Source: Trichoderma breve (taxonomy: Eukaryota; Ascomycota; Sordariomycetes; Hypocreales; Hypocreaceae). From it: 64,000 nt of DNA. Location: contig NC_079234.1 of assembly GCF_028502605.1 (NCBI RefSeq), positions 62,001 through 126,000 on the forward strand. Direction: 5' to 3'. Every line of letters starts with the position of its first letter. Position 1 is the first letter of the stretch. Shown piece by piece: positions 23,821-59,187 of the stretch. Position numbers and translations under genes: made by a program. The notes beneath the pieces are model-generated. The model made no database searches and was not told the DNA's origin. It saw only the letters and a program-made list of their open reading frames with translations.

Positions 23821-23849
23821 GGTTGAACCTAAGACCCAAGGCGCACCCC

Positions 23850-28871: not shown

Positions 28872-29113
28872 GATATTAGTCTCAGGTGCACAATATCCGA
28901 TAGGTCGGTCTTTCAGATTGACTGCCTATTCCGGCGCTGCATGTAAACGTCTGAGATGCATTTATGTGCCAGAGTTCCTGGTTACACTAAATAAGAAGTA
29001 CAGTGGTTTTGAAATTGAATGGCTTATTGAGTGAAAGCCTCTAAACTGTTTGAATGGGATAATGTGATAGTAGGTCAATATTGAACGCATTCTCAAGAGT
29101 CAACAGCGCACGC

Positions 29114-29127
29114 CGGATGTGCTTCCG
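29114..29127. promoter_or_regulatory. CGG-N8-CCG inverted repeat (site 3)
   Basis: CGGATGTGCTTCCG. It lies between the SDR gene (minus) and the regulator gene (plus), and forms a pair with the next site 24 bp downstream. Confidence 0.6.
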
Positions 29128-29137
29128 GAGGTGAGGC

Positions 29138-29151
29138 CGGATGCGCTTCCG
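29138..29151. promoter_or_regulatory. CGG-N8-CCG inverted repeat (site 4)
   Basis: CGGATGCGCTTCCG. It differs from site 3 at one base. The 24-bp spacing is close to two helical turns (about 21 bp), so two bound dimers could lie on nearly the same face of the DNA. Confidence 0.6.
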
Positions 29152-32934: not shown

Positions 32935-33112
32935 TCCCCATATAGGGCATTAAATAAACCATCAATAATGTCTCGTTTTCATGAATGTCTTAAGAGTATA
33001 CTATGTACGTATCGGCTTATTCCTACGGTCACCTTTGAACAAGCATATCTCCCCGCTTGCCGCGAGCCAGCGCGCGGTGTGGTAGCCGTACCGGATCCTA
33101 GCCCACACATGC

Positions 33113-33126
33113 CGGATAGTGATCCG
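33113..33126. promoter_or_regulatory. CGG-N8-CCG inverted repeat (site 5)
   Basis: CGGATAGTGATCCG. It lies 124 bp upstream of the aldehyde dehydrogenase ATG and matches CGGAT-N4-ATCCG exactly. Confidence 0.6.
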
Positions 33127-33249
33127 CTCTATGGCAACACCATCCGGAAAATAACGTGAAAAAGTACCCTGCATCCATGATATGTACGAGCTTCTCCATG
33201 GTCTGAAATTTAGCTCCAATACAAGGAAGCAGTAACAGTAGCAGAAACC

Positions 33250-34910
33250 ATGTCATTGCTTGAGAGCCGAACGGTTCCTCTGTGGATCGGCAATAAAGCA
33301 GTCTTGTCCGGCATTACATTCCCAGTAACCAACAGTGCCACCGGTGAGTCCCTAACGGCACACGGCGCTACACCAGAGATTGTTCAGAATGCAGTGGACA
33401 GTAGCTACCAGGCCTTTAACACCTGGAAACGGAGTAGTCCATGGCAGCGGCGGGAGCTGCTCACCAGGGCAGCGAATCTGCTACGAGAGCGTAGAGAAGA
33501 AGCGGCAGCTATCTTACGGGCAAGTACAATCATCATTACAATGCTCCACGTGTTCATATAGGACTCTAATCCCTTTCATTACGTGCTTACCACAGGTCGA
33601 GACTCCAATTGACGATTTCATGGTCCATCAGATCAATATTCAGACCAGTATTGACCTCTTGGAAGAACTAGCGGGTCAGATCATGCACACCATGGATGCT
33701 GTCGTCCAGCCCAGTAAGCAATCGGACGCTATGCTGGCTATGGTCTTCCGAGAACCTCTCGGTGTTCAGGTCGGCATTGCACCATGGAACGCCTCATTAT
33801 TTCTCGGTATGCGAGCAGTAGCAACTCCCATAGCTTGCGGCAACACGGCGATTCTCAAGGCCTCAGAGAAGACCCCAATGGCTCACCATTTCATCGGTCG
33901 GCTTTTTCACGACGCAGGCTTCCCAGCGGGTGTCCTCAATGTCATACAGCATTCCCAGGAAGACGCTGTATCGATTGTGAACGCTCTCGTCTCGGACAGC
34001 CGTGTACGGAAGATTAATTTCACAGGCAGCACGGCAGTGGGCAAGATTATCGCAGCCAACGCTGCAAAGCACTGTAAACCAGTTTTGCTAGAACTGGGCG
34101 GCAAGTCCGCACAGCTCGTGCTCCCAGATGCTGACCTAGACAAGGCAGCGCAGGCAGCCGCTATTGGGGCTTTCACACACGTGCGTCGGCTCGTATCTTG
34201 TTCCTACGCTAGACAAGAAGACTAACATAGGTACGCAGCATGGCCAGGTGTGCATGTCGACAGAGCGGATCCTTGTAAGTGAAAGTGTCCTCGATAAGTT
34301 CTCAGAGAAACTCGCCGCAAGTTCGATGCGGTTCAGTGAGAACGTTTGCCCTGGGGCTTCGGTCGAACATACATCGAAGGTCACATCACTTCTAGAGGAT
34401 GCCCGGGCAAAGGGAGCAAGAATTCTAGGCGGGGGAGAGGGTGCGCATCAAGATGGCTCTTTCTTGACACCTCGGATCCTTGTCAATGTGACTAGGGAGA
34501 TGAAGATCTGGCATACTGAAACATTCGCCCCAATCGCCCTGCTCATCCCTTTCAGCACAGTCGACGAAGCTGTAGCACTGGCCAATGATACGGCATACGG
34601 CTTATCGGCAAGTGTCTACACGGCCAACATCCCACTAGCAATTGAGATTGGGCGGCGTCTTGAGAGTGGTTCAGTCCACATCAACTCCATGACAATCCAT
34701 GACGAGGCGCATATGCCTCACGGAGGCGTCAAAGAGAGCGGTTGGGGCCGATTTGGGGTGCCTTGGGGTAAACATGATCTGATTTTGCAGACCGTACTTG
34801 GACCCATGCTAACGAAAGCCAGGATTTGCCGAGTTTACACAATTAAAAACGATCACCATCACAGATACGCATCTGGCAGGCTAAGAGGGAGTTTTGCGAA
34901 CAGTAGCTAG
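33250..34910 (+). CDS. Aldehyde dehydrogenase (salicylaldehyde/vanillin dehydrogenase-like)
   Basis: Exons 33250-33519, 33596-34180 and 34239-34910 give 508 residues. Motifs in order are AFNTWKRSSPWQR, VGIAPWNASL (cofactor/catalytic Asn), KASEKTP, FTGSTAVG, LELGGKS (general-base Glu), GQVCMSTER (nucleophilic Cys), ETFAPIA and the C-terminal SGWGRFG. GQxCMSTER is typical of the aryl-aldehyde group that oxidises salicylaldehyde or vanillin to the acid with NAD(P). Intron 1 appears to use a GC donor (GCAAGT at 33520), because only that joins ILR to VETPID in frame. The last 35 residues after ILQTVL are unlike the family, so the true 3' end may involve a further exon. Confidence 0.85.
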
Positions 34911-35085
34911 CTTAAAATGCGACTCAGTATAAGCCTTACATTAAACATACATTATAGTAGTCGTTGTATCTGGAAGACTTTCTACCCACAGAATCCTAGT
35001 TTCAGATTGCTACTAGTTAAATACTTAAAAATACTGTTTACATTCGTTTCAATGTTGCCCAATGAGTCCCAAACGGGTGGAGCGA

Positions 35086-35099
35086 CGGGAGTGCTTCCG
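35086..35099. promoter_or_regulatory. CGG-N8-CCG inverted repeat (site 6)
   Basis: CGGGAGTGCTTCCG. It lies 132 bp upstream of the alcohol dehydrogenase ATG and shares GTGCTTCCG with site 3. Confidence 0.55.
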
Positions 35100-35230
35100 G
35101 CCCACGAAGTAAACATTAGCGCCGCACCTCGCCCAGTATATAGCATGCTTCTGCTCCTTAAGCCAATATTTTTCTAGTTGACTAATCCCTCTTTTCTTTT
35201 GCTTGAAGTTACAATAACTTCTGTCTCCAA

Positions 35231-36545
35231 ATGGCAGCTCCGAGAAATATCCGTACGAAAGCCTACGTTGTGCAGGGTGAAGGAGATCCGTTCACTCTCT
35301 GTGATGTTGTCTTGGACGAGGTACAACCAAACGAGGTGCTAGTGGAGATCTGGTACACAGGTATATGCCATACCGTAAGCATTTCGGCTTATTTTGTTGC
35401 CTTCTCGTTCTGTTAATCTCCTGTAGGATGTTGTTGTCCAGCATGGTGGCATGCCACTAGGAGGCTACCCAGCTGTTCTCGGTCACGAGGGAGCTGGCGT
35501 TGTGAGGTGGACAGGATCCGCAATCAAGGATAAATCTTTGAAGCCAGGAGACAGTGTACTGCTTTCATTTCATTCCTGCCGCCAATGTAGATTCTGTCTC
35601 GAGGGTCGGTGTGGCACATGTCCACACATGACGGAGACCAACTTTGTCCGCCCTGCCCGTCGAGATGCCGGAGCAAAATCACCAATATCACTTCTAGACG
35701 GCACAAAGGTTCATGGACAGTTTTTTGGACAGTCATCTATGAGCAAGCTGGCCGTCGTCGCAGAGGCGAGCATAATCAAGGTTGATGCGAGGCCAGAAGA
35801 GCTCCGCACATTACCTCCCATGGGGTGTGGCTACCTAGCAGGTGCTGGAACTGTGTTTAACGTGGTAAAACCACAGGTTCAGGACTCTGTAGCCGTTGTG
35901 GGCATGGGAGCCGTTGGTATTGCGGCGATGCTGGCTGCAAAGTCTCTCGGGGTACGACACGTCATTGCTATCGATGTTGTTGAAGCCAAGTTGAAGGTGG
36001 CATCCTCTCTAGGGGCAACACATATTGTCAACTCGGCAGCAGAGCCAGATTTGCAGACCGCGCTGCACGCCATTATCCCGGGTGGCCCAAACAGTATTAT
36101 AGACACAACCGGCTTGGTCGGAGTGCTCGAGGCCTCAGTGAAAGCTCTCGCTCATGGCGGAACGCTGGCTCTAGTGGGAGTTCCCGCTCCAACTGCAACC
36201 ATGCGAATCAATGCGCTGGATTTGCTGCTGTCGTGTAAACGAGTAATCGGTGTCATTGAGGGAGCCACCGATCCGCATATTGTATTAAGTTCCCCACCCT
36301 TACTCTCATATTTGTAGGTTTGCTAACCTTTCGACCTACAGCTAGTTCCTAAGCTTTTCGAGCTCTACCGCGATGGAAAATTCCCCGTCGACTGCTTGGC
36401 AAAAGTTTATCCAGCGGAGCAACTTGACAAGGCAATCACGGACCTTGAATCGGGTCTGGTAAGTGCTACGACTTAGAAAAGAATTCAGGTTATTAATGAA
36501 TCTTAGATTGTCAAGCCGATCCTGTCGTGGGAGAATTTGTACTGA
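35231..36545 (+). CDS. Zinc-dependent alcohol dehydrogenase (aryl/benzyl alcohol type)
   Basis: Exons 35231-35374, 35427-36281, 36342-36458 and 36507-36545 give 384 residues. The protein is a medium-chain dehydrogenase: GICHT supplies the catalytic-zinc Cys, GHEGAGVV the catalytic His/Glu region, and SCRQCRFC...GTC the four structural-zinc cysteines. GMGAVGIAAMLAAKSLG is the NAD Rossmann loop, followed by an Asp (AIDVV) that favours NAD over NADP. The closest remembered relatives are aryl-alcohol (benzyl alcohol) dehydrogenases. It would convert an alcohol to the aldehyde used by the neighbouring aldehyde dehydrogenase, and the two lie in tandem on the same strand. The tiny last exon keeps family sequence (IVKPIL). 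Confidence 0.9.
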
Positions 36546-36743
36546 TGATGATCTGGTTACCGCTGAATCATTTTTTTTATCTTACATACAAGCCAGTTTA
36601 AAGAAGAACGAATTGTACACACCTTTTTCATAAAATCTAAAAAAGCACAATACACTTAGTACATATTGAAACCCTTTTAGAATAGTTCCATTTATTGTGA
36701 ACATAACTGTCCGCAACAGGTCAGAACTACACCGGAAGCCATG

Positions 36744-36757
36744 CGGATATGCAGCCG
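36744..36757. promoter_or_regulatory. CGG-N8-CCG inverted repeat (site 7)
   Basis: CGGATATGCAGCCG. It lies 117 bp upstream of the second SDR gene. Confidence 0.55.
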
Positions 36758-36873
36758 TAGATTGACCCACATGCGGCATGACTTCCGTCTATGTATACAT
36801 GACATCTGGGCGATATAAGGTGCCTTTTTATAGATTCATGTGAACAGTATTTGCGCTTATTGTGATTTTACCT

Positions 36874-37815
36874 ATGGCCTCTGCTATAGCTCGTGCCGGA
36901 TTGTTGGCGGGCAAGGTGTCTGTAATTACAGGAGCCTCGTCTGGCTTGGGGCAAGCCATGGCACTGGAGTTTGCCAAGCAGGGCGCTACCGTCGTCTGTG
37001 CCGACCAAACACCTGGTCCCAACGCAAACAAGAACCGACTCACGCATGAAATAATATGTGATCGAGGGGGCAAGGCGGTCTTTATCTCGACAAATGTCGC
37101 AGAGGAGAGTGACATGTTGAAGCTCGTCCGGGATTCAGCGAATCAGTTTGGTCGGATTGACATGTGAGTTCTACAACATATAGTCAAGTCATTATCTTTA
37201 AAAGCTGATGGTATGTAGAATGGTTAATAATGCTGGCATTGCCCCAGAGGCCTCTGAGCCGCGACCCATCTGGGAGACATCATTACAAACGTTCGAACGA
37301 ACTTGGGGAGTAAACATGCGCGGTGTCTTTCTCGGATGCAAATATGCTGGTACTCAGATGATGCGCCAAGAGAGAAATCGCAAAGACGGTAGGGCTGGGA
37401 CTATTATCAACATCGGATCAATACTCGGCGTGTTGGGTAAACCAGGCACGCCTGCTTATTCGGCCACCAAGGGGGCTGTAATCGCCTTTACACGAGCAGT
37501 AGCTATGGATTATGCTCCTCACGGCATCCATTGCAATTCGATTCTTCCGGGATGTATGTATGGTCATCACAAGTGCTTATAGTATCAACGCTAACTCAAC
37601 CCAATCCCTTAGTCACGCGAACTCCAATGATCTCAGCTATGACAGAAAACGTCGAAATCGAGCGAGAAATGGCACAACGACATCCTCTCAAGCGACTTGG
37701 AGAGCCACAAGATATTGCAAGCGCTGCTGTTTTCCTGGCCAGCAGCATGTCGGATGGAATTACCGGCCTGAACTTGTCTGTGGATGGTGGGCTACATAGT
37801 CAACTAAGCTTATGA
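36874..37815 (+). CDS. Short-chain dehydrogenase/reductase (classical SDR)
   Basis: Exons 36874-37163, 37219-37553 and 37613-37815 give 275 residues. The first in-frame ATG is at 36874. Features are [16 protein letters not shown] (cofactor loop), CADQ at the end of strand 2, [13 protein letters not shown] (catalytic Ser), YSATKGA (Tyr and Lys) and LPGFTRTPM spanning intron 2. It ends with the common GLNLSVDGG strand. This is a classical fungal SDR acting on an unknown alcohol/ketone of the cluster pathway. It is the third gene in a plus-strand run with the aldehyde and alcohol dehydrogenases. Confidence 0.9.
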
Positions 37816-37954
37816 TCCTTATTATTAGGTAACTGTATTGGTCTGGATAGCAATTATAACACATGGAGCACCATCGAAATAGTTGAAAATGCGGTCAATT
37901 CATGTCGTTCTAGTGATTTTCAAGTTCGTCCATATTTCTAAGACTAAGTGCTGT

Positions 37955-39381
37955 CTACTTGTCTAACGATTCTGCCTTAATACCTTCGTATACTTTGGAT
38001 TCTATCCCCATCCAAAGCTCGACAACTTTGGGGTCAGCAAACGGCAGAATTTGGGATGCAACGAGGCCAGCAATTCCCTGTTGCCGATCACACCACCAAA
38101 ATGCATTGGAGAGGCCAGACCATTGCCCTGTCTTCTCAGAGCGGCCGGTCGGGCCGGGAGTAATCATGAAGCCCAGTCCCCAGCCTTGCGGCGTCGGCGG
38201 CGGGCAAGGGGGATAGAAAGCCTCGGCCATATAGACTAGCTCCGGCTTTACAGCAGGCAAGTGACGGCGGGCAAAATTTGGCAGCCATGCTAGCTGGTTG
38301 GTAAACATGGCTTCAACGGTAGCAGGTGCAAGTACCACCTCGCCTGAATGAGACCTGCCGTCTCGCAGCAACATGGCAAGGATTTCTGAGACAAAGGTTA
38401 ACACAGTGACAGCCAGCAATGGTTTGTGTAGAACATACTTCCAAATTCTCGGGTGCTCCCAAAAAGTCCTGCGCCGCCGCTATGGAAGCTGTGGGCTGCA
38501 TCTGCCTCCAACGGGCGGCTGAGGAGAGGTGTGCGAGGAGAGAGGTTGCCCTCTTGGTCGCGTTGCCATATGCCAACGAGTCTCTCTCTCATCTCTAAGG
38601 AGGGAGTCATAGTCAAGTCGTGGATGCCCAAGGGAATAAATATGTGGCGCTGCATGTAATCACCTAATTTCATGCCCGTAACACGCTCAACGGCTACGCC
38701 AGCCCAGTCCATGGAAATCTTAGATACGGCTTAGCATGAGCATATTTAAAAACACACAGTGAACATACCTACACCATACTCGAATGTTTCTCCTGGTTGG
38801 TTGACAAGAGGTTGTAGAATGTCATCCATGTGCCCGGAAAATTCGTTAAAATTGACTCTGTCAGCGCGACATGCCTTAGAGTAGGCCTGAAGCTTGGGGT
38901 TTAGAAATGAGTATCCGAATCCAGCTATTTTTATAATTGTCAGAATTGTCACAGCTCTCTATATACTAGCTTGTGACAAAATACCTGTATGAGTCAACAA
39001 CATCCGCAGCGTGATGCGGGACTGCGCCGGTTCTAGAGTGCCATTCTCCTGCACAACCTTGAGATCTACAAGCTCTGGGCAGAGACCTTCCAACTGGTCT
39101 GCATCATCGAGACGGAGAATTGAGGCCTCGACGAGCTGCATGCAAGCAATACTAGTGACCAGCTTTGTACACGACGCCAACCAATAAATATCGTTACTAT
39201 CCTCCCTATCCTTTCTTCCAAATGAAGCCGTCGCGGAGTGCACAAAGAGTTCTGGTTGAGAACCGGTACCAACAACAACGGTACTGGCACAGGGCACGCC
39301 GGTTGGTTGCCCCGTGGAGGCGATATCGAGAAGGCTGCGTATATCAGCCGCAGCCTGCTCAGAGAGAGAAAAGCTCGCCAT
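37955..39381 (-). CDS. Class C beta-lactamase-fold serine hydrolase (esterase/transesterase)
   Basis: Exons 39381-38985, 38924-38773, 38718-38439 and 38385-37955 give 419 residues. SCTK at residues 70-73 is the catalytic SxxK. The FEYG|ISMDWAG junction over intron 2 holds the family Tyr (YG/YSN motif), and HSGGAGLFGSTREF and GWGLGF are typical of fungal LovD/EstB-like proteins. These hydrolyse esters or transfer acyl groups rather than destroying antibiotics. In this cluster an esterase acting on a Baeyer-Villiger ester is a sensible guess. No signal peptide is seen, so it is probably cytosolic. It diverges from the FAD monooxygenase over one shared CGG-N8-CCG site. Confidence 0.85.
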
Positions 39382-39558
39382 TATGATATTTTAGTGTACC
39401 TGTATATGCATTGGGCATCTATTACAGCTCATACCATCATATAATAACGTTTTTAAATCTTTTACAGTATTTTCTGTAGATAGATGATACCTTTGTGGGG
39501 AGAGGGCCATATTGGCCGGGTAGGGGTCCCGGAAGCCGGGTTTTGGATGCTCCACCCC

Positions 39559-39572
39559 CGGATGCAGATCCG
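39559..39572. promoter_or_regulatory. CGG-N8-CCG inverted repeat (site 8)
   Basis: CGGATGCAGATCCG. It lies in the 343-bp divergent promoter between the beta-lactamase-fold gene and the FAD monooxygenase. It is nearly identical to site 2, including upstream CACCCC. Confidence 0.6.
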
Positions 39573-39724
39573 TTGCCGGCTTCCAGTACGGTGCAATGCA
39601 AATTTCCCTCAGTGTTGAGGAGCAGCCATCTCTACTCCGTACAATCTGTCTGAAAAGGACTTCATACGATACCTCAATAATATTTGTGCACTTTGCGAAG
39701 CGGTCGAAACAGCGAGACGGCGTC

Positions 39725-41721
39725 ATGGCTGAACAAGTCGATGTACTCATTTGTGGCAGCGGATCTGCGGGGCTTTGCGCGGCTGTCTGGCTGGCACGAT
39801 GCGGCATCAACTACAAGATCGTGGAGCGCCGAGCTGGCCCTCTTGAGAATGGCCAAGCGGATGGTGTGCAGTGTCGAACCGTGGAGATATTCGAAAGCTT
39901 TGGCATATCCGAGGGCCTCCTCAAAGAGGCCTATCATGTGCTCGAGGTTGCTTTTTGGGCAGCAGAGGGCGAGGGCATTAAACGTACTCACTACGCAGCC
40001 GACACGGAGCCTGGCTTGAGCCACCAGCCTCATGTCATCCTGAATCAGGCAAGGATAAATGGCCTGCTGATCGAAGAGATACAGCGGGTGTCTGGAAGCG
40101 TGGAGATTGAGTACGGATGCGACGTACAGAGCGTGGAAGTTGATGATATCGTTCCCGAAGACTCTGCCGCCTGCTGCATTACCACCAGGGCAATTTCGAA
40201 CGGGCAACAGAAGGTCTTTCGATCAAAATATGTGCTTGTCAGTTGGCTAGACAATCACCCTGTCGCATTTTTACTTCACTGCTAACGACAGGTTAGGCTT
40301 GTGATGGAGCTCATAGCGCGGTAAGGAAATCTTTGGGTATTGCCATGGTCGGGGACTCCACGAATGCCATCTGGGGTGTTATGGACCTCCATGCCAGAAC
40401 AGACTTCCCCGACATCCGGAAGAAGGCAATCATCCATTCGCGCGCCGGCAATCTCATGATCATCCCCCGCGAGGGCGACTCCATGATCCGTTTCTACATC
40501 GAGCTTGGTGATGCAGCTGTCAGTGACATCACATTAGATGACTTGCAGGAACGGGCGCGTCGAATTTTCCAGCCCTATTCCGTGGAGTTCATGGAGACGG
40601 TCTGGTGGTCGGCATACTCAATTGGCCAGCGCCTGGCTGACAACTTTGCCAAGGCTGGACGTGTGTTTTTGACAGGGGATGCTTGCCATACGCATTCGCC
40701 AAAGGCCGGACAGGGTATGAACGTGAGCCTGCAAGATGGCTACAACATTGGCTGGAAGCTGGCATCAGTTCTCAGGGGCCAATCCTCTCCCCAAATTCTC
40801 GAAACATATATTTCGGAGCGCCAGAAAACGGCGGCGCAGCTGATCAATTTTGACCGATTCTTCACAAAACTCTTTTCCTCCTCTTACCGACAAGAGAATG
40901 GGATTTCTTCACAGGATTTCAAGGACCAGTTTGTCAAGGCAGGTCGATACACAGCCGGCCAAGGCGTGAGATACGAAGAATCTGTCTTTGTATCCCCAAG
41001 CCCAGCTGATGAGAGCCTGGCTCGGAACGTAACCGTTGGAATGCGCTTCCCCAGTGCCCAGGTTGTCCGGTTCTGCGATGCCCGCGCTATGCAACTGGTG
41101 GCAGCGCTCCCCGCCGATTCCCGGTGGCATGTCGTTGTGTTTGCTGGGGACATTTTGCAGCAGACAGCAGCCGACAGGCTTATCAAGGTCCGCCGGGTCC
41201 CCAAACTTCTTATAGCACCGCTCCGCTAACAGAAGCTATTTACATGCAGGCTGCAGAAAAACTACAGGACATCATAGATACCTTTACACCAGATGGTCAG
41301 GATACGAATTCCGTCATTCAAGGAGTGCTTGTGCTTGCGTCCAAGCGTGTCAAGGTGGAGCAGAGCATGATCCCTGATGTCTTCACCCCGATAACAGGCA
41401 AATGGAAGATCAAACGTGAGTAGTCAGGTTAGCTCTCATATTTCGTATACTGACATGACCAGATCTCCAAAAAGTCTTCGTGGATGACGAGAGTTACAAT
41501 TCAGGGCATGGGAAAGCATACGAAGCGTACGGCATTCATTCTGAGGGATGCTTGATCATCATTCGCCCAGACCAATGTAAGTTGTCAAATTGTGCATGAT
41601 AGGGTAGTACACTTGCAATGCGCTAACTAAAGTAGACGTCGCAAAGATTTGCTCTTTAGATGACACGAAGGATGTCCTGAATTTCTTTAGCCAGTTTTTA
41701 ATTTCCAAGAAATTAAATTAA
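39725..41721 (+). CDS. Phenol 2-monooxygenase-type FAD-dependent aromatic hydroxylase
   Basis: Exons 39725-40237, 40297-41187, 41250-41415, 41463-41576 and 41636-41721 give 589 residues. The N-terminus has the FAD Rossmann loop GSGSAG and the strand-2 acidic end (VERR), then GVQCRTVEIFESFGI, a hallmark of phenol/3-hydroxybenzoate hydroxylases. CDGAHSAVRKSLG (DG motif) follows intron 1. LTGDACHTHSPKAGQGMNVSLQDGYN is the second FAD motif (GD...P...G-N). The C-terminal 150 residues form the thioredoxin-like domain of this group, continued through three small exons (YGIHSEGCLIIIRPDQY). It hydroxylates a phenolic ring ortho to OH using NADPH and O2, and length and domains look intact. It is a functional relative of the decayed gene at 12.7-13.7 kb. 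Confidence 0.9.
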
Positions 41722-42117: not shown

Positions 42118-42969
42118 ATGATACATACATATCTTTCCGCCCCAAATTTTAACATACCGCCCCCGCCGGATTGCCCCTTGGTCTTAGGACAGATCTTGAC
42201 TGATCCAAAAGACCCTCTCTATAGCCTCAACGCCGGTGAGGTAGTTATTCCTCTTGACTCTCCTCAGATTTGCTCCCTACCAGCAAAGGGCTTCTCTGCT
42301 ACCCGATCACAACTAAAGGAAGGCAACTTCAAGGTCTGGACCAAGCTGTCGGATTTGTTCCCTATTGGGGTCAGCGCCGAGGGCGGTAAACGTGGTAGCT
42401 CCGAGGATGTCTTCACGATTGAATGCGTTGAGACAACCTTCTTCCTTCCGACGCCCACGTATTTGGCTAAGAGCCTCCGATGTGAGGCGGTGCGGAGCTA
42501 TCTCGATGGTGCCCGCTGGAAGAAATCGCTATACATAGTCACAGGGATCAAGGTCGCCCGCGGTGCCAAGGTAAAGAGCTCTACAGTCAACAGCAAGAGT
42601 TCTCACTGCGAGCTATCGGCTGGTTTGGCGCAGTCGGGCCTTCCATTGAGCGTTGGTGTCGGCGCCGGGTCCAAGAAGGAGGCAAATGAGATTACGAGCT
42701 TTGAGAGCGACGGATTCCTACTGGCCTTCGAAGTCCGCGAGATCAAATGCACCAAGAAACAACCACCGTCCACAAAGCTCTACCACAAAGGTGCCATGTT
42801 CGAAGCTAGGGTTCCAAAAGGCCAGGAGGCCGACAGTGAATTTTATTTCACGATGGAAGAGACCGACCCAATTCCAGCTAGCCATACTGCACAGGCGTTT
42901 GGTCCGCTTGGACTCGCGAGTCAGAATTCAGGTGATGGTGACGAAGATAGGTTTTGCATTGAGCCTTGA
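42118..42969 (+). CDS. Gasdermin-like protein (HET-Q1/RCD-1 type)
   Basis: This single exon encodes 283 residues, close to the size of fungal gasdermin-like proteins. The N-terminal part reads PLVLGQILTDPKDPL, then NFKVWTKLSDL. The centre has alternating beta strands with SLYIVTGIKVARGAKV, followed by a Gly-rich SVGVGAGSKK and a GFLLAFEVREIKC strand before a variable tail of about 50 residues. This order recalls the fungal gasdermin N-domain with its short inhibitory C-terminal extension. Known members form membrane pores after proteolytic removal of the tail and cause hyphal cell death in allorecognition. The convergent neighbour, 132 bp away, is a subtilisin-like protease gene, the expected partner. 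The family call is from memory of the pattern, not a search. No signal peptide, so it is cytosolic. Confidence 0.6.
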   Translation: MIHTYLSAPNFNIPPPPDCPLVLGQILTDPKDPLYSLNAGEVVIPLDSPQICSLPAKGFSATRSQLKEGNFKVWTKLSDLFPIGVSAEGGKRGSSEDVFTIECVETTFFLPTPTYLAKSLRCEAVRSYLDGARWKKSLYIVTGIKVARGAKVKSSTVNSKSSHCELSAGLAQSGLPLSVGVGAGSKKEANEITSFESDGFLLAFEVREIKCTKKQPPSTKLYHKGAMFEARVPKGQEADSEFYFTMEETDPIPASHTAQAFGPLGLASQNSGDGDEDRFCIEP

Positions 42970-43101
42970 CACCTGATGTGTCTATGAAGCTACTTAGGCG
43001 GTTGCTGTGTCGCATTAGAACTGCATCTCCATAACTCTAGTATCACGGGTTGCAGCTTTTTACACATAGGGTATTAAAATTTGACTCTATCTCTCAAACT
43101 C

Positions 43102-46020
43102 TCAGGAATTGAGCTGGATCAAGATCTTGGATCTGATAATATCTGCATACCGCTCTCTCGTCTTGGCTGACTTGTCTTCCCATAACATCCAAGGACATAT
43201 GTAGTTATGTCCACCTCTCTTCTTGGGTGCCAGGAGCTTCAATACTGATATCATTCCCGAGAAGCTATGAAGCCGTCTAAGATTCTCTTCCCCAATGTTC
43301 TTCTTGGCTTTGGCATAATCGAGCAGGTTTGCCACAATACCGGCTGCGATAGGCGTAGCAAATGAAGTGCCGGACTTACGAATCTTAGCACACGCAGCCC
43401 TGCCCGGCTCGGGAAGCTGGTGCACTTCGACTGCTTCCCCAAGAGTACTAAAATACGAGCCATCATCCATCTCAGAGGTAAAAGTAGGGTTGAAGGGAGA
43501 CGGGTTCCCTTTACCGTCCGTAGCAAACACGCAGATGACCTCCCTCTGGTTAGCCGGGAAAGCAATACCGTCGTTCCCGCCACCGTTGGATGCCGCAGCG
43601 AGCAGAATCTTTCTCTCCTTGTAGGCCGCTAGTATTGCATCCAGCACTACATCACTCCGATCTTCTAAGCCAAACGACATGGAAACGATATCAGCCTGGC
43701 AGTCCCGAACTGCCCAGGTAATAGCCTGGTTTAACATTAGCGCCGCCATCCTAGCTGTCAGCTATAGCTCCCAGAAATGACCAACCTCGGCTATATAGTT
43801 CTCATTATCAAGTAATCCGTCTTCTGAAACGCGAGCGATGCATACTTCAACACCTGGGGCCACTGCCAACAACAGCTCCGTGGTTTGAGTGCCATGTCCC
43901 ACCTTGTCTTCGACGTCGAAGCTGTCTACTAGCCCCGAGTTATCAGGTATCCAGTTGCGCGTCTCTTTGATGCGATGCCGTGCTCCGTTGATAAACGGGT
44001 TATTCCAGCATATGCCCGTGTCAATCACGGCAACCTTGGTACGCTTAATGCGCTCCTCCTCTGGCAGTCCATCTGCCTCAGAGGCCTCGATAGTGTCAAC
44101 TAGAGAATCCATGATCTGGTCATGGTAGACTCCTAGTCTTTTCATCCAATCGTTCGCGTAACTCGCCCTAGAAGCACGGTTAGATCCTGATTTCTTTGTA
44201 AGGCAATAAAAGAAGCATACTCACGACGTATTTCGAACCTCGTCATCCGGTTCGTCTAACACCTGAAGTCTCTCGTTTAACACAGCCCCCAGCTGTCTCC
44301 ATCGATTTTGAGGTCCCCTGCCTGGGGGCGCGACTTCTTGACCAAAAATTCTCTCTTCAGTGGTGGCAGTTTCGGAATCGCTTTCGCCCAGCTCTTCAAT
44401 GGGTTTCTCAATGATATCGAGGTACTCCTGAAGCTTTAAAGGTTGCAGAATGTAGTCATGGACTAGGTTTCCAAACTCCTCATCGTAAGGGTGAGTATCG
44501 ACCGGGAGAAAATCGCACCGGAGGCATGCCGCAATAGCAGATTGGTGGCTTCTGGCTACCTTTCGTTTAAAGACTGGGCTCTCTATCATTTCCCATGCGG
44601 TTGCATAGTCATCATATATGTTTCCTGACCGGCCGCCGCTGCTCATGGTGCCTATTACGACATTATACTCGAGTTCCAGGAGTAGCACACCGAGATCCAA
44701 GATGAAAGGGTGGGTGTGGAAAAAGTCCTTCCAACCGTTGTCATCTAGGTATGCGGATGATTCAGTGGAAGAGATCGCAAAGAATGGTCGGCTTATGTCT
44801 ACCTCAGTATGGCTCTCTTCGCTGCCAACAATTGGGAGCAAGAAGCAGTCAATGAACCTCAGGCGACGAGATTCAAGCCAGAAGGTGCCCGATTGCAAAA
44901 TGAACTCGGCTAATGGTGCTGCTAATAAGATCCTCTCCCTTGAGGATAGCTTTTGGTCTTCCAAAAGCGAACGTAATGACACATAAGATTTGACTTTGCG
45001 TGAGGGTCGTTTAGCCAGAGTAAATTGGTCTGATCCAGATTTAAAAGACAGAGAATCTACCGTTGTATAGCTCCATATATTTTCCTCCATCTCTATAATC
45101 TGGTTTATTGTGTCGAAAACTGGTAAAACTGGTAAAACTGCTGGGGCTAGGAACCTGAAAGACTTAGGAGTCTGTTCCAATAGAGAAATATCGTAAAGCA
45201 GCCAGTGCACATTCCCGTCGCTGCACGGCCGCAGAAAGGCTAGCGTATTAGTGCTCGACGAGTTGGACTCTTGACAGACACAGATCATGGCTTGAGGCGG
45301 GTGTATGTCAACTGAAACTTGTGCAGAAGAGCGGCTGACAAGCCGTGAATATGCTTTGAGTTCGATGAAACGAATTTGTGTTTCTTCTTCCCAAAAGCGC
45401 TCCTGACTCCCGCTACCAGCATGCTCGGCTGATTGGTCTTTCTCATTCGACGTTATCGGCCTATTGATACCTTGAAAGGAGTCACAGATGACCGATCTGC
45501 ATCTCTGGAGGACTTCTAGTGATCGCTTGGCATCTCTGTGCTCGATGCTGAACTGAACAGACCCACCACAATACAGCCCGTCGATGTCAGCAAAGGTACG
45601 GCCTAGTCGATTCGCTGAGACCACCAGCTGTCGAAGCCTCTTGATCTTGTAGAAGCGCTCCGAAGACTTCTTTTGCAGATCTGCACTCAGGTCGGCAGAG
45701 GGTGCGAGGTCCGTTTTGAGCAAAGATTCAAGAAACTCCAACATTCGTTCGGCCGTGCTGCTTAGCTCAACTGAGGTACCCGACGGATTCGTGGCGTAAT
45801 AAGACTTCAGGCCCAGTTCTATCAGCCCTATCTCAACACAAAAGTCGTCAAAGAAGTTGCGTATACGCTCGATCTCTTCTCTTGAATCAGTCGCCCTCGG
45901 CCATCGCGCCTTCGCTTCTGACTCAGCCGCCTGCTTGGAGACAGGGAGGTCTGAGCCGAAAAATTCCAGGACACCAAGCAGCAAATATACCAGCTGTGCA
46001 TCTTCTGGTTTCAGCGCCAT
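43102..46020 (-). CDS. DUF7580-like/subtilisin-like protease (HET-Q2-like) with in-frame stop
   Basis: Exon 1 (46020-44225) and exon 2 (44167 onward) join in frame over a 57-bp intron. The first 250 residues are helical. About 330-580 resembles DUF7580 (VSLRSLLED, DLGVLLLELEYN, HQSAIAACL). A peptidase S8 domain follows with VIDTG (Asp), GHGT (His) and SGTSFATP (Ser). One TAG at 43762-43764 interrupts exon 2 between His and Ser; both sides stay in the same frame. Without suppression the product lacks the serine. Removing 24-31 bp around it would restore the frame in some combinations, but such introns are shorter than normal. Full length would be about 950 residues. Partner and neighbour context: convergent with the gasdermin-like gene, which such proteases cleave in the HET-Q system, and divergent (220 bp) from the C2H2 gene. 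Confidence 0.7.
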
Positions 46021-46240
46021 CTCCAGATTCTATGGTTATAAGCATATCAGATGCATTGCTAGGTTAACAATTCATGCCTGGCAGCTTTTACTGCTCAACT
46101 CATCACGTGTCGGATCGGCGTTGTCGGCGAATCGAGAGGTAATCCTTCGGACGGTAAGATGCGGGGCAGCCCATGCTCACAATTTCAGCATCATACATCG
46201 CAACACGGCTATACCATGCCGTAAGTATGAATTACAAGAT

Positions 46241-47974
46241 ATGGAACGTCTTATACCCTCTGTGTCGGACGAACAGCGTCTGCTCCATACTGCCTCTGCA
46301 ATGGACAGCATTGCTAATGCCACGAGTGAATGCCGAGAGGCTTTTCAGAAGTACCTCAAAGAACCGTACCCTGGCACCGAAAGCGATGTTGCCCGTCTGT
46401 TTGTCAACTTTGAGAGGTGGTCTACCTCGCTATCAGTTGACCGAAATTGGCCCTCCCCTACTCTTAGGAGAACCCTATCGCTGGACACCCTCCTGAGCAC
46501 AGATGCTATGACGAAAAGGAAATTGACAGATTTGCTTCTCTTAATCGCTAAACACATTAGACAAGGTGCGGACTCTAAACATCTTGCATTAAGATAGCTT
46601 AGTAACGATCAACTATTACGACGCAGCAAGCGAAGCCTCGGTCCAATCTCGGACGTCTCGAGCCTCGACAAAGTCCAAGGGGGGCAGCCATTCGGGATAT
46701 AGTGATAGGTTCTCGGAGTCTACGTTCGAATCTTTTAATACTTTTGTGACACAGACGGGCTACATCAACCCCCTAAAGGCCATGAAGCTATACATGAAGA
46801 GGCTGTATGACTTCTCGACGCTGCTGCGTGCCACCGTTCCGGAAATTCGTTACCTTGCCCCCCACCACGAGAAAGACGAAAGCTTCTGGCAGGTGGCCAG
46901 CGCGATGGTAGATTATAAATTCCCTGACGCTGATCCAGAAATCGCTTCTAGGCTAGCGGCAGCTATGATTCTGCGCCGCGGACGCCTCATGCAGCTGCTG
47001 ACCAGACGAGGCCCCGAAAGGCTAGCTCATGCTAACACTGGCTCAGAAACCAAGAAGGGAGAAGAGCCAGAGCAAGCAGGGCTATCCATATCCAGGGCAC
47101 CGACCAGTGCCGCTACTGTTATGTCTGCCGGATACAACGCTCGCAATCTCTCGAAAGTTACAGCCTCCATTGTCTCTAACCATGTCAAAGCTCTAGAATA
47201 TTGGGACCTCATTCCGTCCAGGCCAAAGACGTCCGAGACCGGCGGCTTCACGTGCCGCTACTGTCATCGGACGCTACAACCCATGTCTGCTTCAAGATGG
47301 CGGTAATGTAGATCTTCGACTAGACATTTCTCGATCCGTGGCTGACTTGGCGTCTTTATTCCAGCCGTCATGTTCTCCAAGATATTGAGCCATTAGTCTG
47401 CCTACATGTGGCTTGTTCGCGGCCCCTGGAGACGTTTGGCGACTACTTAGCCTGGAAAAATCACATGCAGACGCATTATCTACGCTGGTATTGCCGTGCT
47501 CCTTGCCACGGTGGCTCTACATTGGTATTTTATCATCCAGCCGACTTTGAGCAACACCTTTGCACTGTACACCGAGACACGATTGCCAAATCCCAAATTC
47601 CCCTCCTTATCCGAAACAGTTCGCGGCCAACCTCCTATATGCCCGATACATGCCCCTTATGCCTAAGAACAGTAGATTACCCAACCACGGAGTGGGAATC
47701 GCATATCTTGAACCATCTGATGACCTTGGCTCAAGTAAGCGCGGACTCTGTCATCAACATGGACCAGGAGGATGGAGATGTTGCTTCGGAGAGCTTATCT
47801 TTCTCGGCCTGGGATAACTATCAGATATCGTTGCTTGATGATGAGGACAGTGACCCGCTATTTGATGACCCAGTAAATGCAGATAACAGAGATCAGGATG
47901 CAGTGATGGGACCGTGGCCCAACGTTGAAGATGAATGGGGCTTCATTAAAGCCAGTTATCGAATCGTTCCTTAG
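46241..47974 (+). CDS. C2H2-type zinc-finger protein, fungal accessory family
   Basis: Exons 46241-46565, 46627-47302 and 47365-47974 give 536 residues. The N-terminal half is helical (SVSDEQRLLHTASAMDSIAN; MILRRGRLMQLLTRRG). The C-terminal half has several Cys/His pairs: FTCRYCHRTL, CLHVACSRP...WKNHMQTHY, WYCRAPC...FEQHLCTVH and CPLCLR...WESHILNHL. These are C2H2-like fingers with irregular spacing. The tail is very acidic. Proteins of this shape are numerous in fungal genomes, often beside NLR or cell-death genes, but have no known function. It diverges from the protease gene, so it may belong to the same defence island; that link is positional only. Confidence 0.75.
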
Positions 47975-53563: not shown

Positions 53564-55006
53564 ATGCCGCCAGAGAGCCCAGAGGCACTGCAACAGGCTG
53601 TGAGCTCATTGAAGCGTAAAAAGAAGCCCGTTCGCCGTGATATGGAGAAGAGACGTCAACAAAATGTCCAAGCTCAAAAGAAGTATCGTGAGTGCCCCTC
53701 TTCCGTACTTAATGTACCAATATTGTGAATCCGTGAATGGCAATTACAAGGGTAACTAACAGATGAAACGATGTGTAATAATTTAGGAGAAAAACAACGT
53801 CAGCGACTGGAGACTCTCAAGGCAATCGCCGCATCTGCTGGACAGAACCATGCAAATGAAATACCGTGTTCGCAAACAAGTCCGTCCGAAGTGACGATGC
53901 AAAGAGACAACAGCAGCTCAATAGATCATGGTATTTCGACGTCATCTGCATCCCATCAAGGATCCTCGACAGAACGCCCACCACTCGATTCACAGCCTGA
54001 AAGAAACTCATTATCCCAAAGTACGGGGGACTCTCACCCAGCATTTAACTCTTTCGTCGTTCCAAAACAATCTCAACCCACCATCTCACAGCCAAACGAC
54101 AATCCCTCACCTTTTGGTAACGGAAAAATCCACTCCATCTCGAGTCCACCCGCTTCGACGCCTGGAGAATGGCTACTCCAGACTTCACCATCCAATACTA
54201 CGCATTCCAATCCTCCTTCACCAACATGGGACTCATGCACGCATGTCAGCTCTTCATTCCTCATACGTGACAAAACCAGGCAAACGTTTAGCCCATATTG
54301 GACTACAACAATTGAATGCGGCTGCTCAATACCACACGTACAACTACGTTCGAGAGACCCCTTTTCCCACAGCGATACGCATATTATCAGCTTCGGCGCT
54401 GATGGAATGGCCACGGATTCATGCACGAGCAGCAGTATCCACATTGAGCGAGTATGCATCGCTGCGGCGCTGTACACACTCGTGAAGTATATGGGCATTG
54501 GGGAGGAGACTTTCTGTGCGGATGACTCGCTCTCGCCTTTCTACCGGCCGAGCTTAGAATTTGCTGATGATGCCACCCGGAATCGGACAATTGGTATGGT
54601 CCAACAAATGTACAAGACCTTGAAGCCAGACTTGAGACCAAGTGCGGAGCAGATCCTGATAAAGCATCATCCCTATATTGACATTCTGCCCTTCCCGACA
54701 TTGCGGAGGAATCTTATTATGCATCAGAAAGAAATCGACGAAGACGAATTTTTGAACGATACACTGATTGGTCTGATATGTTGGGGTGGCGTGGGCAAGG
54801 CAAGGAATGATACAGATAATGTGATGGGGCATACGGCTGCGGAAACGGCGTGGGATGCGCGCAGTTGGGAGGCCAAGGCGTGGTTCCTAAAGAAGTACTG
54901 GTGTCTGCTTGGCGGGGAAGATGGTGAGCTTGTCAGGCAGAGTGAGTGGTGGCGGAGTGTTAGGGGAGAGGAACTCAAGTTAGATCTAGTTGACTTGAAA
55001 AGTTGA
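53564..55006 (+). CDS. bZIP transcription factor with DUF3425 domain
   Basis: Exons 53564-53687 and 53787-55006 give 447 residues. Residues about 20-50 form the basic region and start of the zipper (RRDMEKRRQQNVQAQKKYREKQRQ, shown in part: N-x7-R spans the intron at KKY|R). A Ser/Thr/Pro-rich middle follows. The C-terminal part has LPFPTLRRNLI, CWGGVG and a Trp-rich end (WEAKAWFLKKYWCLLGG, then SEWWRS), the DUF3425 domain found in AP-1-like fungal bZIPs. It is a nuclear regulator with unknown targets. Its stop lies 220 bp from that of the convergent FMP52 gene. Confidence 0.9.
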
Positions 55007-55226
55007 CTTGCAGAAGGACCTGGAATTGAGTGTCGATTTTGTAGAGAAAAGCAAATCTGAACGCAACACGATCTCACTCTGGTGCAGAGTTTTAGGAAAC
55101 CTCCCAATTGCACACCGAGAGCAAGACCTCCATTCTGTCCATGATCTGAATCAAGACCAGCGCCTGTTTACATCAAATAACGCAACCATCACTTTTGACA
55201 AAGCCAATTCAAGAATGACATTCACC

Positions 55227-55998
55227 TCACTCTTTCCACTCGTCTCTACCCAGCCTTACAATATCCGATTGTTCTAACACCCAAAACTTCGCAGGAGCTT
55301 TCCCCTCTTCCACCATTCTCATAGCAGCCACCGCGGCTCTCCCGATAATCGTTTGATCTTGCGCTACAGAAACTCATCAGTCTTGGTCCTCCCAGTTCAG
55401 AATGCCAAATGAACAAAGACAGGATAAAGTTGCTCATACCCCACTTGTCCTGGAATCCCTGTCCAAGTTTCTTCATCCCATGAAAGATATCCTCCAGCCA
55501 CTTATTCTTTGGGGTTTCTCTTCCCAGAATCATTCCTGGTCTCAAGATTATGACATTCTCAAAGTCCAATTCCTTTATATGTTTCTCAACACCCCTCTTC
55601 ATTCTGGCATAAGGTGTCAGGGCAAATGGGCTCAGCGCCCCGCTTGTCCCTGCGCTCGAACAGTAGACATACGTCTTAACACCTCCTGCTTTCGCCGCTT
55701 TTGCATTTTCTACACATAAATCGTGGTCGATTGCCCATTGCGCAGCGACAGAGCCTGCGCTGCCGATCGTGGTGCCGACGGCATTGAAGACCACTGAGGG
55801 GACCAAAGGCAGCGTGGCGATTAAAGGACCCCATTTGGCGGTGTCGGTTTCGATGATGGATTGAAGTTTGGAATCTTGTGTTGGCGGAGCGCGACGGGAG
55901 ATAGTTGTGACGGACGTGCAAGCAGCAGAGGAGAGGAGGGTAGCGAGGATTTGGGAGCCCACTGCGCCAGTGGAACCAAAGATCAGGGCCGTTGTCAT
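55227..55998 (-). CDS. FMP52: FMP52 homologue, NAD(P)-binding mitochondrial outer-membrane protein
   Basis: Exons 55998-55440 and 55363-55227 give 231 residues, the same length as yeast Fmp52. LIFGSTGAVGSQIL is the Rossmann loop, VFNAVGTTIGSAGS and YVYCSSAGTSG follow, and YARMKRGVE carries the Tyr-x3-Lys pair of atypical SDRs. The C-terminal exon (QDQTIIGRAAVAAMR) agrees with the family. The protein is conserved across ascomycetes and located on mitochondria, with unclear enzymatic role. It is the one clearly core gene in this part of the window. Confidence 0.85.
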
Positions 55999-56343
55999 AA
56001 TGATGTGGATATTAAGTGATATATAATGAGAGGCATTGGGGAGGAAGATTGAAACTTTTTAGGGTTATAAACAATCTTTAAATAGCCCACCGTAAAAGTG
56101 GCTGACGTTAAGTTATGTTGCTCCTGTATAAAAGAAATTGCCTACGGAGTAGCTACACGGTCTTTAATTATCCCGTCACGGCTGATAAGCCAACAGGGCG
56201 CAACATTTATAGCCGCAATTATTATTATAACTGTCTATTAACAATACAGACGGTTAATCTTAGGCGATCAATGTTAGACACATTTAACAAGTTACAAGCA
56301 GTCGTTATTATACGTCACTGTTGGACCATAACCGTTGATACTC
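55999..56343. other. Intergenic region between FMP52 and MFS gene
   Basis: It holds the promoter of FMP52 and the 3' end of the MFS gene, is AT-rich, and shows no other feature. Confidence 0.3.
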
Positions 56344-58050
56344 TCAAGCTGCACCTCCACTAGCAATAGCCGCTGTATTCAACTTGTTCCATCGCTGGAA
56401 CAATATAATGGTAATAAAAGCAATCCCTGACGACGCAATGCCAATCACAAACGCGACTTTGAGACCCTGCATATAGGCTACCAATATCCCAGGAATTTGG
56501 TCCTCCGAAAACACTTTTCGCAAATCCGTCGCGCCGGTGCTCACCACGAGGGCTGGGTTGACTCCTGGTGCTGTCTTGGGAAGATTGTTGATCATGACGT
56601 TAACAAAACCAGCTTGGGCAGCAGAAACCATCCCTGCGCCGCCAAGTGTCTGGAGGAACAGCAGCATGGCTGTCACTTCTGCGAGATCTGTGGCCGGCGC
56701 TGTAGCTTGTACCGTGATAATGGGGATCTGGGACGCGATACCCCAGCCGACACCGCCGATGGTCTGGTAACCGATCCACTTGCCCTCAGAGGTACCAATA
56801 TCCAAAGTGTAAAGCAAACCTGTACATATCGTCGACAGGGCAGTCCCGGCGACGATAATCGGCGCCGCAATACCAGTGGCAGAGATGTAAGCACCGCTGC
56901 AAAGCATGGAGATGACAACAGCGACAATGAGTGGCAGGTTTCTAACTCCACTGGACTGGGCACTCGTATTGTCGATGCTCTGGAAGTATATTGGTAGGTA
57001 ATACAGGACCAAGTAGTACGCGCCAGAGTAGAAGAATGAAAAGACCGACTCGACGATGTAAACTCTCTGCTTGGCAAGGCGGAACGAAAACATAGCTGTG
57101 TCTTTCTGGAACCACTCCCATAGTATAAATGATCCCACTAATACCGCACCGCCAACCAAGAGGCCTATCTCGTGTGCAGAGTCCCAGGGAAACTTGGTAC
57201 CACCGTCCTGTACGGCGAGGAGATAGCATACCACGAAGGCGATCACAAGAGCGGCGCCTACGGGGTCCATATGGAGGAGCTTCTCGCGCAGGGTTGCCGC
57301 CTGTGGCTTTGCAGTTCTGGGGGCCTTGAAGAAGACCAGAATGATGAAGGCGGATATTGCTCCAATGGGCAAGTTGATGTAGAAGCACCAGCGCCATGAT
57401 ACTTTATCTGAGAATGCGCCTCCAATCAGGGGCCCAACAGCTGCCGCAACGCCGTAGCTCGTTCCAACGATCCCAGTGAACATGGGCCGGCTCTTTGGCG
57501 ACGCAGAGAATCCGATGATGGTATATGAACCGGAGCCAATGCCTGCAGCTCCCACGCCCGCAAACGCACGCCCGACGATGAGGGCAGTGCTGCTAGGCGC
57601 AACAGCACAGATCAAAGATCCAAGCTCAAAAATGAATATGGCGATGAGGTAGCTGGTTTTCAGTGGAAAGTATTTATAGATTTTGCCCCAGGCGCTCTGA
57701 AAGCCACCCATAGTCATGAAGAAGGCCGAGCTGTACCAGGCAATATCCGAGAGCCCGTTGAACTGGTCGGTGATTTTGGGAATTGCGGTCGCGACAATTG
57801 TCAGGTCGAGGGAGACGAGAAAGATGGCGAGTGCAAGCGCAGTGATGATGGCGACGAGTCGAGAACCCGTGGGATATTCTGAGTTATCAATCTCCACGTC
57901 TTGCGAGGTCGGAAATTCCACGCTTGAGTCCATCTCTTTATCGCTGATCCTTCGGTCATTAGAGTCCTTCTCGTCGATAGTACTTGCTACTGCCAATGAA
58001 GCATGTCTTTGCTCTGGGGCGACGTCGCCCTTTGAATCGAGAGACGCCAT
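56344..58050 (-). CDS. MFS multidrug/toxin efflux transporter, DHA2 (14-TMS) type
   Basis: The first ATG of the frame is at 58050 (MASLDSKGD), giving 568 residues without introns. A hydrophilic acidic N-terminus of about 65 residues precedes the first helix. LVSLDLTIVATAIPKI is the DHA2 motif in helix 1, GRAFAGVGAAGIGSG the motif C-like region, and WRWCFYINLPIGA the conserved loop after helix 6. About 14 hydrophobic segments follow. Transporters of this type sit in the plasma membrane or vacuole and export toxins or drugs by proton antiport. No biosynthetic gene is adjacent, so the substrate is open. Mid-gene base composition is GC-rich compared with both flanks. Confidence 0.9.
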   Translation of the reverse strand: MASLDSKGDVAPEQRHASLAVASTIDEKDSNDRRISDKEMDSSVEFPTSQDVEIDNSEYPTGSRLVAIITALALAIFLVSLDLTIVATAIPKITDQFNGLSDIAWYSSAFFMTMGGFQSAWGKIYKYFPLKTSYLIAIFIFELGSLICAVAPSSTALIVGRAFAGVGAAGIGSGSYTIIGFSASPKSRPMFTGIVGTSYGVAAAVGPLIGGAFSDKVSWRWCFYINLPIGAISAFIILVFFKAPRTAKPQAATLREKLLHMDPVGAALVIAFVVCYLLAVQDGGTKFPWDSAHEIGLLVGGAVLVGSFILWEWFQKDTAMFSFRLAKQRVYIVESVFSFFYSGAYYLVLYYLPIYFQSIDNTSAQSSGVRNLPLIVAVVISMLCSGAYISATGIAAPIIVAGTALSTICTGLLYTLDIGTSEGKWIGYQTIGGVGWGIASQIPIITVQATAPATDLAEVTAMLLFLQTLGGAGMVSAAQAGFVNVMINNLPKTAPGVNPALVVSTGATDLRKVFSEDQIPGILVAYMQGLKVAFVIGIASSGIAFITIILFQRWNKLNTAAIASGGAA

Positions 58051-58322
58051 GTGGGTTAATGTACGTATTGGCTGTCTAGCTCTAGTAAATGCAGCTTGGC
58101 GAAGAGAGGTTATCTTTATTTCATGAAGATTTAGAGGCAAAGACTCCAAGTAGAGACAGCAGGAAACGCAGGTATTAATGACACAAAAGCCAAGAGCATA
58201 GGCTTCCCCTACAGTATGCTACCCGCCTCCGTTGGCTGAGTGTGTATTAATGGCTGACGAGGGACACATACGCCGCAGGACGCATCTTTGTACTCGCAAA
58301 TGGCTTCATCAGCCATTTTCAT

Positions 58323-58428
58323 CATGGCTCTCTCAGCCTGCATTATTTCGAACGTGTCGTTGATATCAGCCATTCGTCGCATGACTCCCTCAGTCGGCAT
58401 TATGTCTAGCATGTGGCTGATATTAGCC
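58323..58428. repeat. Two-copy imperfect direct repeat, 57-bp period
   Basis: A segment at 58323-58371 (CATGGCTCTCTCAGCCTGCA..., ending TTGATATCAGCC) recurs at 58380-58428 (CATGACTCCCTCAGTCGGCA..., ending CTGATATTAGCC). A minus-strand frame of 73 codons covers it but lacks a clear ATG start and is probably not a gene. It lies upstream of the MFS gene. Confidence 0.6.
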
Positions 58429-59187
58429 AAAAACCCGTAAACTGTACGAAGTTCATGCGGACAAGCTAACGGGCCGACGGGCTAACAGCGAGTGGCTGGC
58501 GCTCGGGAGGATCCGATAAGCAGTGCCGTAATTGCTCTCTTCTCCTGTGGAGGCCCTAGGTGCTGAGAGAATCAACATCAGCCGCTTTAGAAATAACTCC
58601 TGATCGCAAATGCCAAGTCGGAGAGTGCTCGAAGTGGCTCAGCACCCATTGAATCTTCAGTGCAGGTGCGGCAATTCGCCGAAAGAGATCATGTTTTTCT
58701 TGGACTGAATGCTTTCCATCTGCGGCCTGCTGCCGTCACTCATAGTGTGCATGATGCGAAGTGGCTGACGAGTAATGACTATGAGCCAAAGTCTGAGAAA
58801 CCGAGGCATAGATGGTTATCGCAGTCGTATTTAAGTGGGATTATGGGCAATTTTGGTTCAGTCTCTCCAAGTAAGTAGATTTGAGCGGGTTTGGTCGGGG
58901 TTCGACTATTGTGTTCAAGCTGAGCGCGTTGTAGGTGCGTCTAGCGCCGCGATAATGCCCGCTGGTAAGCCGGCCGGCATCTGCCCGTTAGGCTGACGTT
59001 TCCGAAAACATTACGGAGTAGTAATTCATGGCATTCGAGCCAGCGATTTGCACCAAAGAAACTCCTTTGGTTTGTTACGGTTTATATCTTCTTTTACATA
59101 TTATCATTCAAAGTCTTGTAACAAAACAGTGAAAACGTCTATTCTATTCTATTTGCTTTTTTATCTATAAATCAACTTTTATGAGAC
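58429..59187. other. Intergenic region, nothing supported
   Basis: A plus frame of 72 codons at 58660-58878 has no domain. GC-rich at first, then AT-rich towards the old yellow enzyme 3' end. Confidence 0.3.

Follow-up and report, generated by a model that had tools for sequence, protein, structure and literature searches.

A probable three-gene cell-death unit in Trichoderma breve couples a fungal gasdermin with a DUF7580-subtilase and a C2H2 protein

Gene content of the locus

The window analysed here, a stretch of 64,000 nucleotides from the Trichoderma breve genome, contains three consecutive genes that encode a short gasdermin, a protease in which a DUF7580 domain is fused to a peptidase S8 (subtilase) domain, and a C2H2 zinc-finger-like protein. 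The gasdermin gene (42118-42969, forward strand) is a single exon of 283 codons that converges on the DUF7580-Peptidase_S8 gene (43102-46020, reverse strand) across a spacer of 132 bp between the two stop codons (42970-43101); coordinates and Pfam matches both agree here with an earlier note on this DNA, which had described such a convergence. On the far side of the protease gene the C2H2 gene (46241-47974, forward strand) runs divergently, as that note had also placed it, with its ATG at 46241 and a spacer of 220 bp between the two start codons (46021-46240) that may serve as a shared promoter. We consider it likely that the three genes together serve regulated cell death, as a unit resembling the fungal gasdermin/HET-Q2 systems, within which cleavage of the gasdermin, pore formation, death and a role for the C2H2 protein are predicted by analogy and gene order.

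The 283-residue protein is confirmed, on profile evidence and modelled fold, as a predicted member of the fungal gasdermins. A profile search detected homology to the pore-forming domain of RCD-1 and HET-Q1, and fold searches with the predicted structure support a gasdermin N-domain fold; the gasdermin-like identity suggested earlier is thus upheld, and the unrelated fold named beforehand as the refuting outcome did not appear in these searches. The structure was predicted from an alignment of 29 of the 30 collected proteins plus the window protein (the 127-residue P0035 being omitted), while an earlier structure built from 6 sequences was poor (predicted local distance difference test score, pLDDT, of 37) and entered no fold search. 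HET-Q1 is a profile match; it was not among the 50 matches listed in either fold search, which is no evidence against the relation. The single-sequence search of the PDB reached RCD-1 only at E 0.16, and the protein had no match in Pfam or NCBIfam. The predicted pore-forming N-domain (residues 1-226, 42118-42795) is followed by a predicted tail (residues 227-283, 42796-42966; net charge -9) for which HET-Q1 suggests an inhibitory role. This C-terminal extension is short, reaching 68 residues past the HET-Q1 profile match and 57 past the domain split at 226. Within it an aromatic cluster (F242-Y243-F244, 42841-42849) lies 39-41 residues before the C-terminus and is a candidate cleavage region, matching in distance F238 of HET-Q1, where cleavage is reported to remove 40 residues (PMC10989679).

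The protease gene comprises three exons (44225-46020, 43786-44167 and 43102-43725) separated by introns at 44168-44224 (GTGAGT..TTCTAG) and 43726-43785 (GTTGGT..AACCAG), giving a protein of 933 residues. An alternative gene model is slightly longer and has poorer splice sites; a Trichoderma guizhouense relative (P0006, 930 residues, PF24476 and PF00082) is identical across both splice junctions of the 933-residue model. Exon 1 matches DUF7580 (E 7.3e-13; residues 317-530, 44431-45072, reverse strand), which closes the N-terminal half of the protein, and the two downstream open reading frames (ORFs) match Peptidase_S8 (E 6.9e-14 and 2.3e-5), forming a C-terminal domain that spans the second intron (43276-44043). 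The S8 catalytic set is complete, with Asp648 (44022-44020), His690 (43896-43894), Asn773 (43587-43585) and Ser847 (43365-43363) all in place. Decayed units do seem to be present in this genome, for example where interrupted S8-like frames adjoin the gasdermin at C2:256341. A decayed module, non-functional in this strain, is nevertheless very improbable in the window, where the three genes are open, the introns are GT-AG, the catalytic residues are intact and the gasdermin is 93% identical to a Trichoderma afarasin protein of the same length.

Recurrence of the gasdermin-protease pairing

Searches for gene order were confined to the window's own genome (38.5 Mb, 9 contigs), whose proteins have their nearest named relatives in Trichoderma. 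Single-protein searches with four of the genome's gasdermins gave 9 gasdermin loci, a lower bound; S8 matches merged into 36 loci genome-wide, and the 19 DUF7580 loci take in one below the curated cut-off (C5:919522). At six of the 9 gasdermin loci an S8 match is no more than 1 kb away, a count that 20,000 random placements never brought above 2, and the orientation is convergent at five of these six, the gasdermin at C7:2889513 being in tandem. From the side of the protease, 6 of the 19 DUF7580 loci have an S8 match no farther than 3 kb away, and a gasdermin is found within 2 kb at 5 of these 6, as against 1 of the 13 other DUF7580 loci (Fisher p 0.003). Nothing else in these data speaks as strongly for an action of the protease on the gasdermin as this dependence of the gasdermin neighbour on an S8-type DUF7580 gene.

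The pairing also appears not to be unique to this genome, and the second refuting outcome named beforehand, its absence from all related genomes, likewise did not come about. A gasdermin (P0002) and a DUF7580 protein (P0008) of A. cavernicola each derive from a contig of 704,135 bp, and a further gasdermin (P0003) and DUF7580 protein (P0009) each from a contig of 8,528 bp; if equal length means the same contig, as appears to be the case, the two genes seem to keep together elsewhere too. As predicted, P0008 and P0009 stop near the end of exon 1, without the S8 part. S8 genes are plentiful enough, at 36 merged loci, that a gasdermin, an unrelated subtilase and a C2H2 gene might have come to adjoin by chance. 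Such an accident is hardly credible, however, given a recurrence that far exceeds random placement and is specific to S8-bearing DUF7580 loci, and given the apparent pairs in other sources.

Among the remaining three gasdermins, the seventh (C2:256341) adjoins frames that are interrupted and match S8 weakly at consecutive positions of the profile (E 0.11 and 0.056, both below cut-off). At this locus (L036:820-2794; C2:256320-258294) the gasdermin is divergent from the S8-like frames and a GHGT motif is absent from the 3 kb read; it is probably a decayed unit. A hit of the C2H2 family described below lies about 4.5 kb from its gasdermin. The eighth gasdermin (C6:1412046) follows a DUF7580 frame in the same frame past one stop codon (L034:586-2295, forward; C6:1411086-1412795), with S8 unmatched and no fitting intron found, and may represent a rearranged or fused unit. 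Proteases of the CHAT and Trypsin_2 types gave 3 and 3 matches genome-wide, none near a gasdermin.

The gasdermin-subtilase two-gene cluster is of an already published kind, the fGSDM-Q2L clusters reportedly described by Clave et al. in 2022 and known here through reviews. The Q2L label is applied where a protease domain lies within 10 kb of a gasdermin gene, and in the window the gap is 132 bp. HET-Q1 of Podospora is cleaved by HET-Q2, and a protease gene is reported to cluster with about 80% of fungal gasdermin genes, the protease being of the S8 type for about 63% (PMC10197012; PMC12881547); as in those clusters, the window gasdermin adjoins a multidomain S8 protease, whereas neither DUF7580 nor C2H2 was found named for them in the open-access literature searched. 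The resemblance to the Podospora anserina pair consists of a short-tailed gasdermin, homologous over the pore domain, and an S8 subtilase. HET-Q2, however, is described as a subtilase of 388 residues (PMC10989679), in contrast to the 933-residue fusion, and het-Q1 and het-Q2 are, according to a review, idiomorphs (PMC12881547), whereas the window genes are adjacent. The earlier note erred in making the Podospora genes neighbours; the adjacency rule holds for other fungal gasdermins. RCD-1-1 and RCD-1-2 of Neurospora crassa differ again, in that two co-expressed alleles are reported to trigger death without proteolysis (PMC12881547), while the window gasdermin adjoins a protease. Some Trichoderma strains are said to carry up to 23 rcd-1 homologues (PMC10989679).

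These comparisons raise the question of whether the locus, like het-Q1/het-Q2 or rcd-1, determines heterokaryon incompatibility (allorecognition) and does not serve to sense foreign organisms. Both fungal gasdermin systems treated in the review control allorecognition (PMC12881547), and in each of 5 relatives compared the N-domain is better conserved than the tail. On the other hand, a single genome here holds open frames for both gasdermin and protease, whereas het-Q1 and het-Q2 are alternatives at one locus, and the same review proposes that allorecognition systems arose from pre-existing gasdermin death pathways (PMC12881547). We regard an allorecognition determinant as unlikely.

The C2H2 family

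The C2H2 gene (exons 46241-46565, 46627-47302 and 47365-47974) encodes 536 residues with C2H2-like fingers in the second half. All zinc-finger Pfam matches are below curated cut-offs, the best C2H2 model being zf-C2H2_4 (E 0.011) and CEP104_ZnF reaching E 0.0032. The stretch encoded by exon 2 (186 residues) has no paralogue at E 0.01 genome-wide; among the fetched loci it gave a match of 31 residues to the C2H2 gene of L009 (E 0.005). In a blast search of the fetched loci the zinc-finger half matched L009, L011, L012, L013 and L028 (E 4e-12 to 5e-4), which amount to all 4 other DUF7580-S8-gasdermin loci of 10 kb and 1 of the 21 other 10-kb S8 loci. This comparison covers 25 of the 36 merged S8 loci (4 plus 21), the others being the window itself, eight short loci (L001-L008, 3.7-4.4 kb), C1:6499348 and C3:5812403. 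A profile built from six C2H2 members brought no further fetched locus above threshold, with a weak match at L023 (E 0.11).

Genome-wide, the family amounts to 15 hits, 13 from a first search (two of them weak, E 0.016 and 0.12) and 2 from a second in which only matches to the zinc-finger half were counted and ankyrin-only matches were dropped. Eleven of the 15 lie within 5 kb of a DUF7580 gene, in divergent orientation in 10 of the 11. The test by random placement used the 13 places of the first search, not the 15-hit union: 10 of the 13 lie within 6 kb of DUF7580, and 20,000 random sets of 13 gave 3 or fewer. Of the hits away from DUF7580, C2:2088430 (L028) stands in divergent orientation to a relative of the window's S8 frame, C2:261469 lies 4.5 kb from a gasdermin, and the remaining two are close to each other. 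The divergent C2H2-S8 pair of L028 occupies L028:2415-5250, with DUF7580 and gasdermin unmatched in its 10 kb. Viewed from the gasdermins, a family member lies within 5 kb at 6 of 9. The C2H2 gene, put forward earlier as a possible third member, is supported in that place by its recurrence beside DUF7580 genes.

Two roles can be envisaged for it. A sensor role is favoured by the family member of L013, which runs on into ankyrin and WD40 repeats. The features that favour a transcription factor are the Zn2Cys6 cluster, typical of fungal transcription factors, borne by the C2H2 frame of L009 and the divergent promoter, an arrangement shared by 10 of the 11 DUF7580-linked loci; the gasdermin-protease pair would then be the functional unit, and the C2H2 protein would act from the shared 220-bp promoter to set expression, without sensing. 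The receptor-like layout of L013 and of C6:847401, where ankyrin-type matches adjoin the C2H2 member, speaks against a purely local regulator, as does the C6 C2H2 gene that is not divergent from its protease. We rate the transcription factor a real but minority prospect, and favour the three-gene unit with the C2H2 protein upstream of the protease.

DUF7580 and exchangeable effectors

The argument for an upstream role comes from loci that lack the gasdermin. At four DUF7580 loci (C1:4377546, C7:2461584, C8:284144 and C8:394133) a PNP_UDP_1 match lies less than 400 bp downstream; a divergent C2H2 gene is present at three of the four, and no gasdermin lies within 400 kb of any of them. In two of the loci read, L037 (2-1330) and L039 (3-1562), the end of DUF7580 and PNP_UDP_1, a nucleoside phosphorylase domain, share one open frame beside divergent C2H2 neighbours, the L037 frame starting inside the DUF7580 match. 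The sequence after DUF7580 was read at 3 of the 13 non-S8 loci (L037-L039) and at L034, the layout of the others following from Pfam match places. At nine further DUF7580 loci neither S8 nor PNP_UDP_1 was matched nearby, and 3 of these 9 have a C2H2 gene. The C2H2-DUF7580 arrangement is therefore also wired to another effector, which argues for placing the C2H2 protein upstream.

S8 and PNP_UDP are both listed among the effector domains of fungal NOD-like receptors (NLRs) (PMC4986451), and the relatives of the C2H2 protein found here share ankyrin and WD40 repeats with those receptors. The differences are that no nucleotide-binding domain is matched, Pfam giving neither NACHT nor NB-ARC in the window protease ORFs, in P0006 or in the whole C2H2 protein, and that the effector follows DUF7580 on its C-terminal side instead of preceding it. 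We tentatively suggest, short of an even chance, that C2H2 and DUF7580 proteins work together in fungal immune signalling, as a previously undescribed platform that lacks a nucleotide-binding domain; DUF7580 would be the connector and the C-terminal effector could be swapped between a subtilase, recruiting an adjacent gasdermin gene, and PNP_UDP_1. The open-access literature searched yielded no paper naming DUF7580, none that connects C2H2 to fungal gasdermin and HET-Q2, and no C2H2/DUF7580 platform with exchangeable effectors. A 2025 survey of NLRs reports C2H2 fingers inside 34 Sordariales NLRs, with gasdermin unmentioned in the portion of its text available to us.

DUF7580 was also considered as a kinase-like domain, which was not demonstrated: it had no hits in the PDB, and hhalign gave probabilities of 0.4 and 1.3% against the two kinase-bearing frames of L010. 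According to a review, there are proteases with 'other predicted kinase-like domains' as fusion partners (PMC12881547); these might be DUF7580, although the comparisons here did not show so. L010 itself carries a DUF7580 frame followed by one long frame with S8, protein kinase and ankyrin repeats (L010:4418-8831, forward), and a divergent frame of 509 residues (764-2290, reverse) with Pkinase and DUF7580 matches, both below cut-off, in overlapping stretches.

By analogy with HET-Q1/HET-Q2, the gasdermin would be produced as an inactive precursor restrained by its short acidic tail. The DUF7580-subtilase would be its intracellular activator, with a stimulus engaging the DUF7580 side and the subtilase domain presumably cutting the gasdermin near the aromatic cluster about 40 residues before the C-terminus. 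The released N-domain could then oligomerise to form membrane pores, killing the compartment, and the divergent C2H2 protein would most likely act as an upstream sensor or regulator.

Several observations count against this scheme. The structure model of the gasdermin is moderate (mean pLDDT 61), with the tail modelled without confidence. The ninth gasdermin (C3:3989405) is more than 500 kb from the nearest S8 match, and CHAT is unmatched on its contig (3 kb around it were read); L010 is a DUF7580-S8 locus with neither a gasdermin nor a C2H2 neighbour, and next to the S8-gasdermin pair of L030 no C2H2 gene turned up. Eight of the 19 DUF7580 loci are without a C2H2 hit inside 100 kb, and at C6:850541 the C2H2 gene is on the gasdermin side, away from DUF7580. 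The C2H2 family search was seeded with members already adjoining DUF7580-S8 genes and so favours similar loci, and the recurrences would not count as separate events if the units were copied whole.

What triggers the diverse putative sensors of fungal cell-death pathways is named a major open question in a 2025 review (PMC12881547), and a family found alongside both the protease and a second type of effector is a concrete candidate for the upstream component. If the platform is real, DUF7580 would gain a role and the window copy would parallel, with three components, the sensor-caspase-gasdermin pathway of animals.

The cassette lies about 104 kb from the contig end, amid genes of catabolic or secondary-metabolism-like character (window 22559-41229 and 53771-60300). 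These include an amidohydrolase, a flavin-containing monooxygenase (FMO), a gluconolactonase-like protein, aldehyde and alcohol dehydrogenases, a phenol hydroxylase, a major facilitator superfamily (MFS) pump with a TRI12 match and a flavin mononucleotide (FMN) oxidoreductase.
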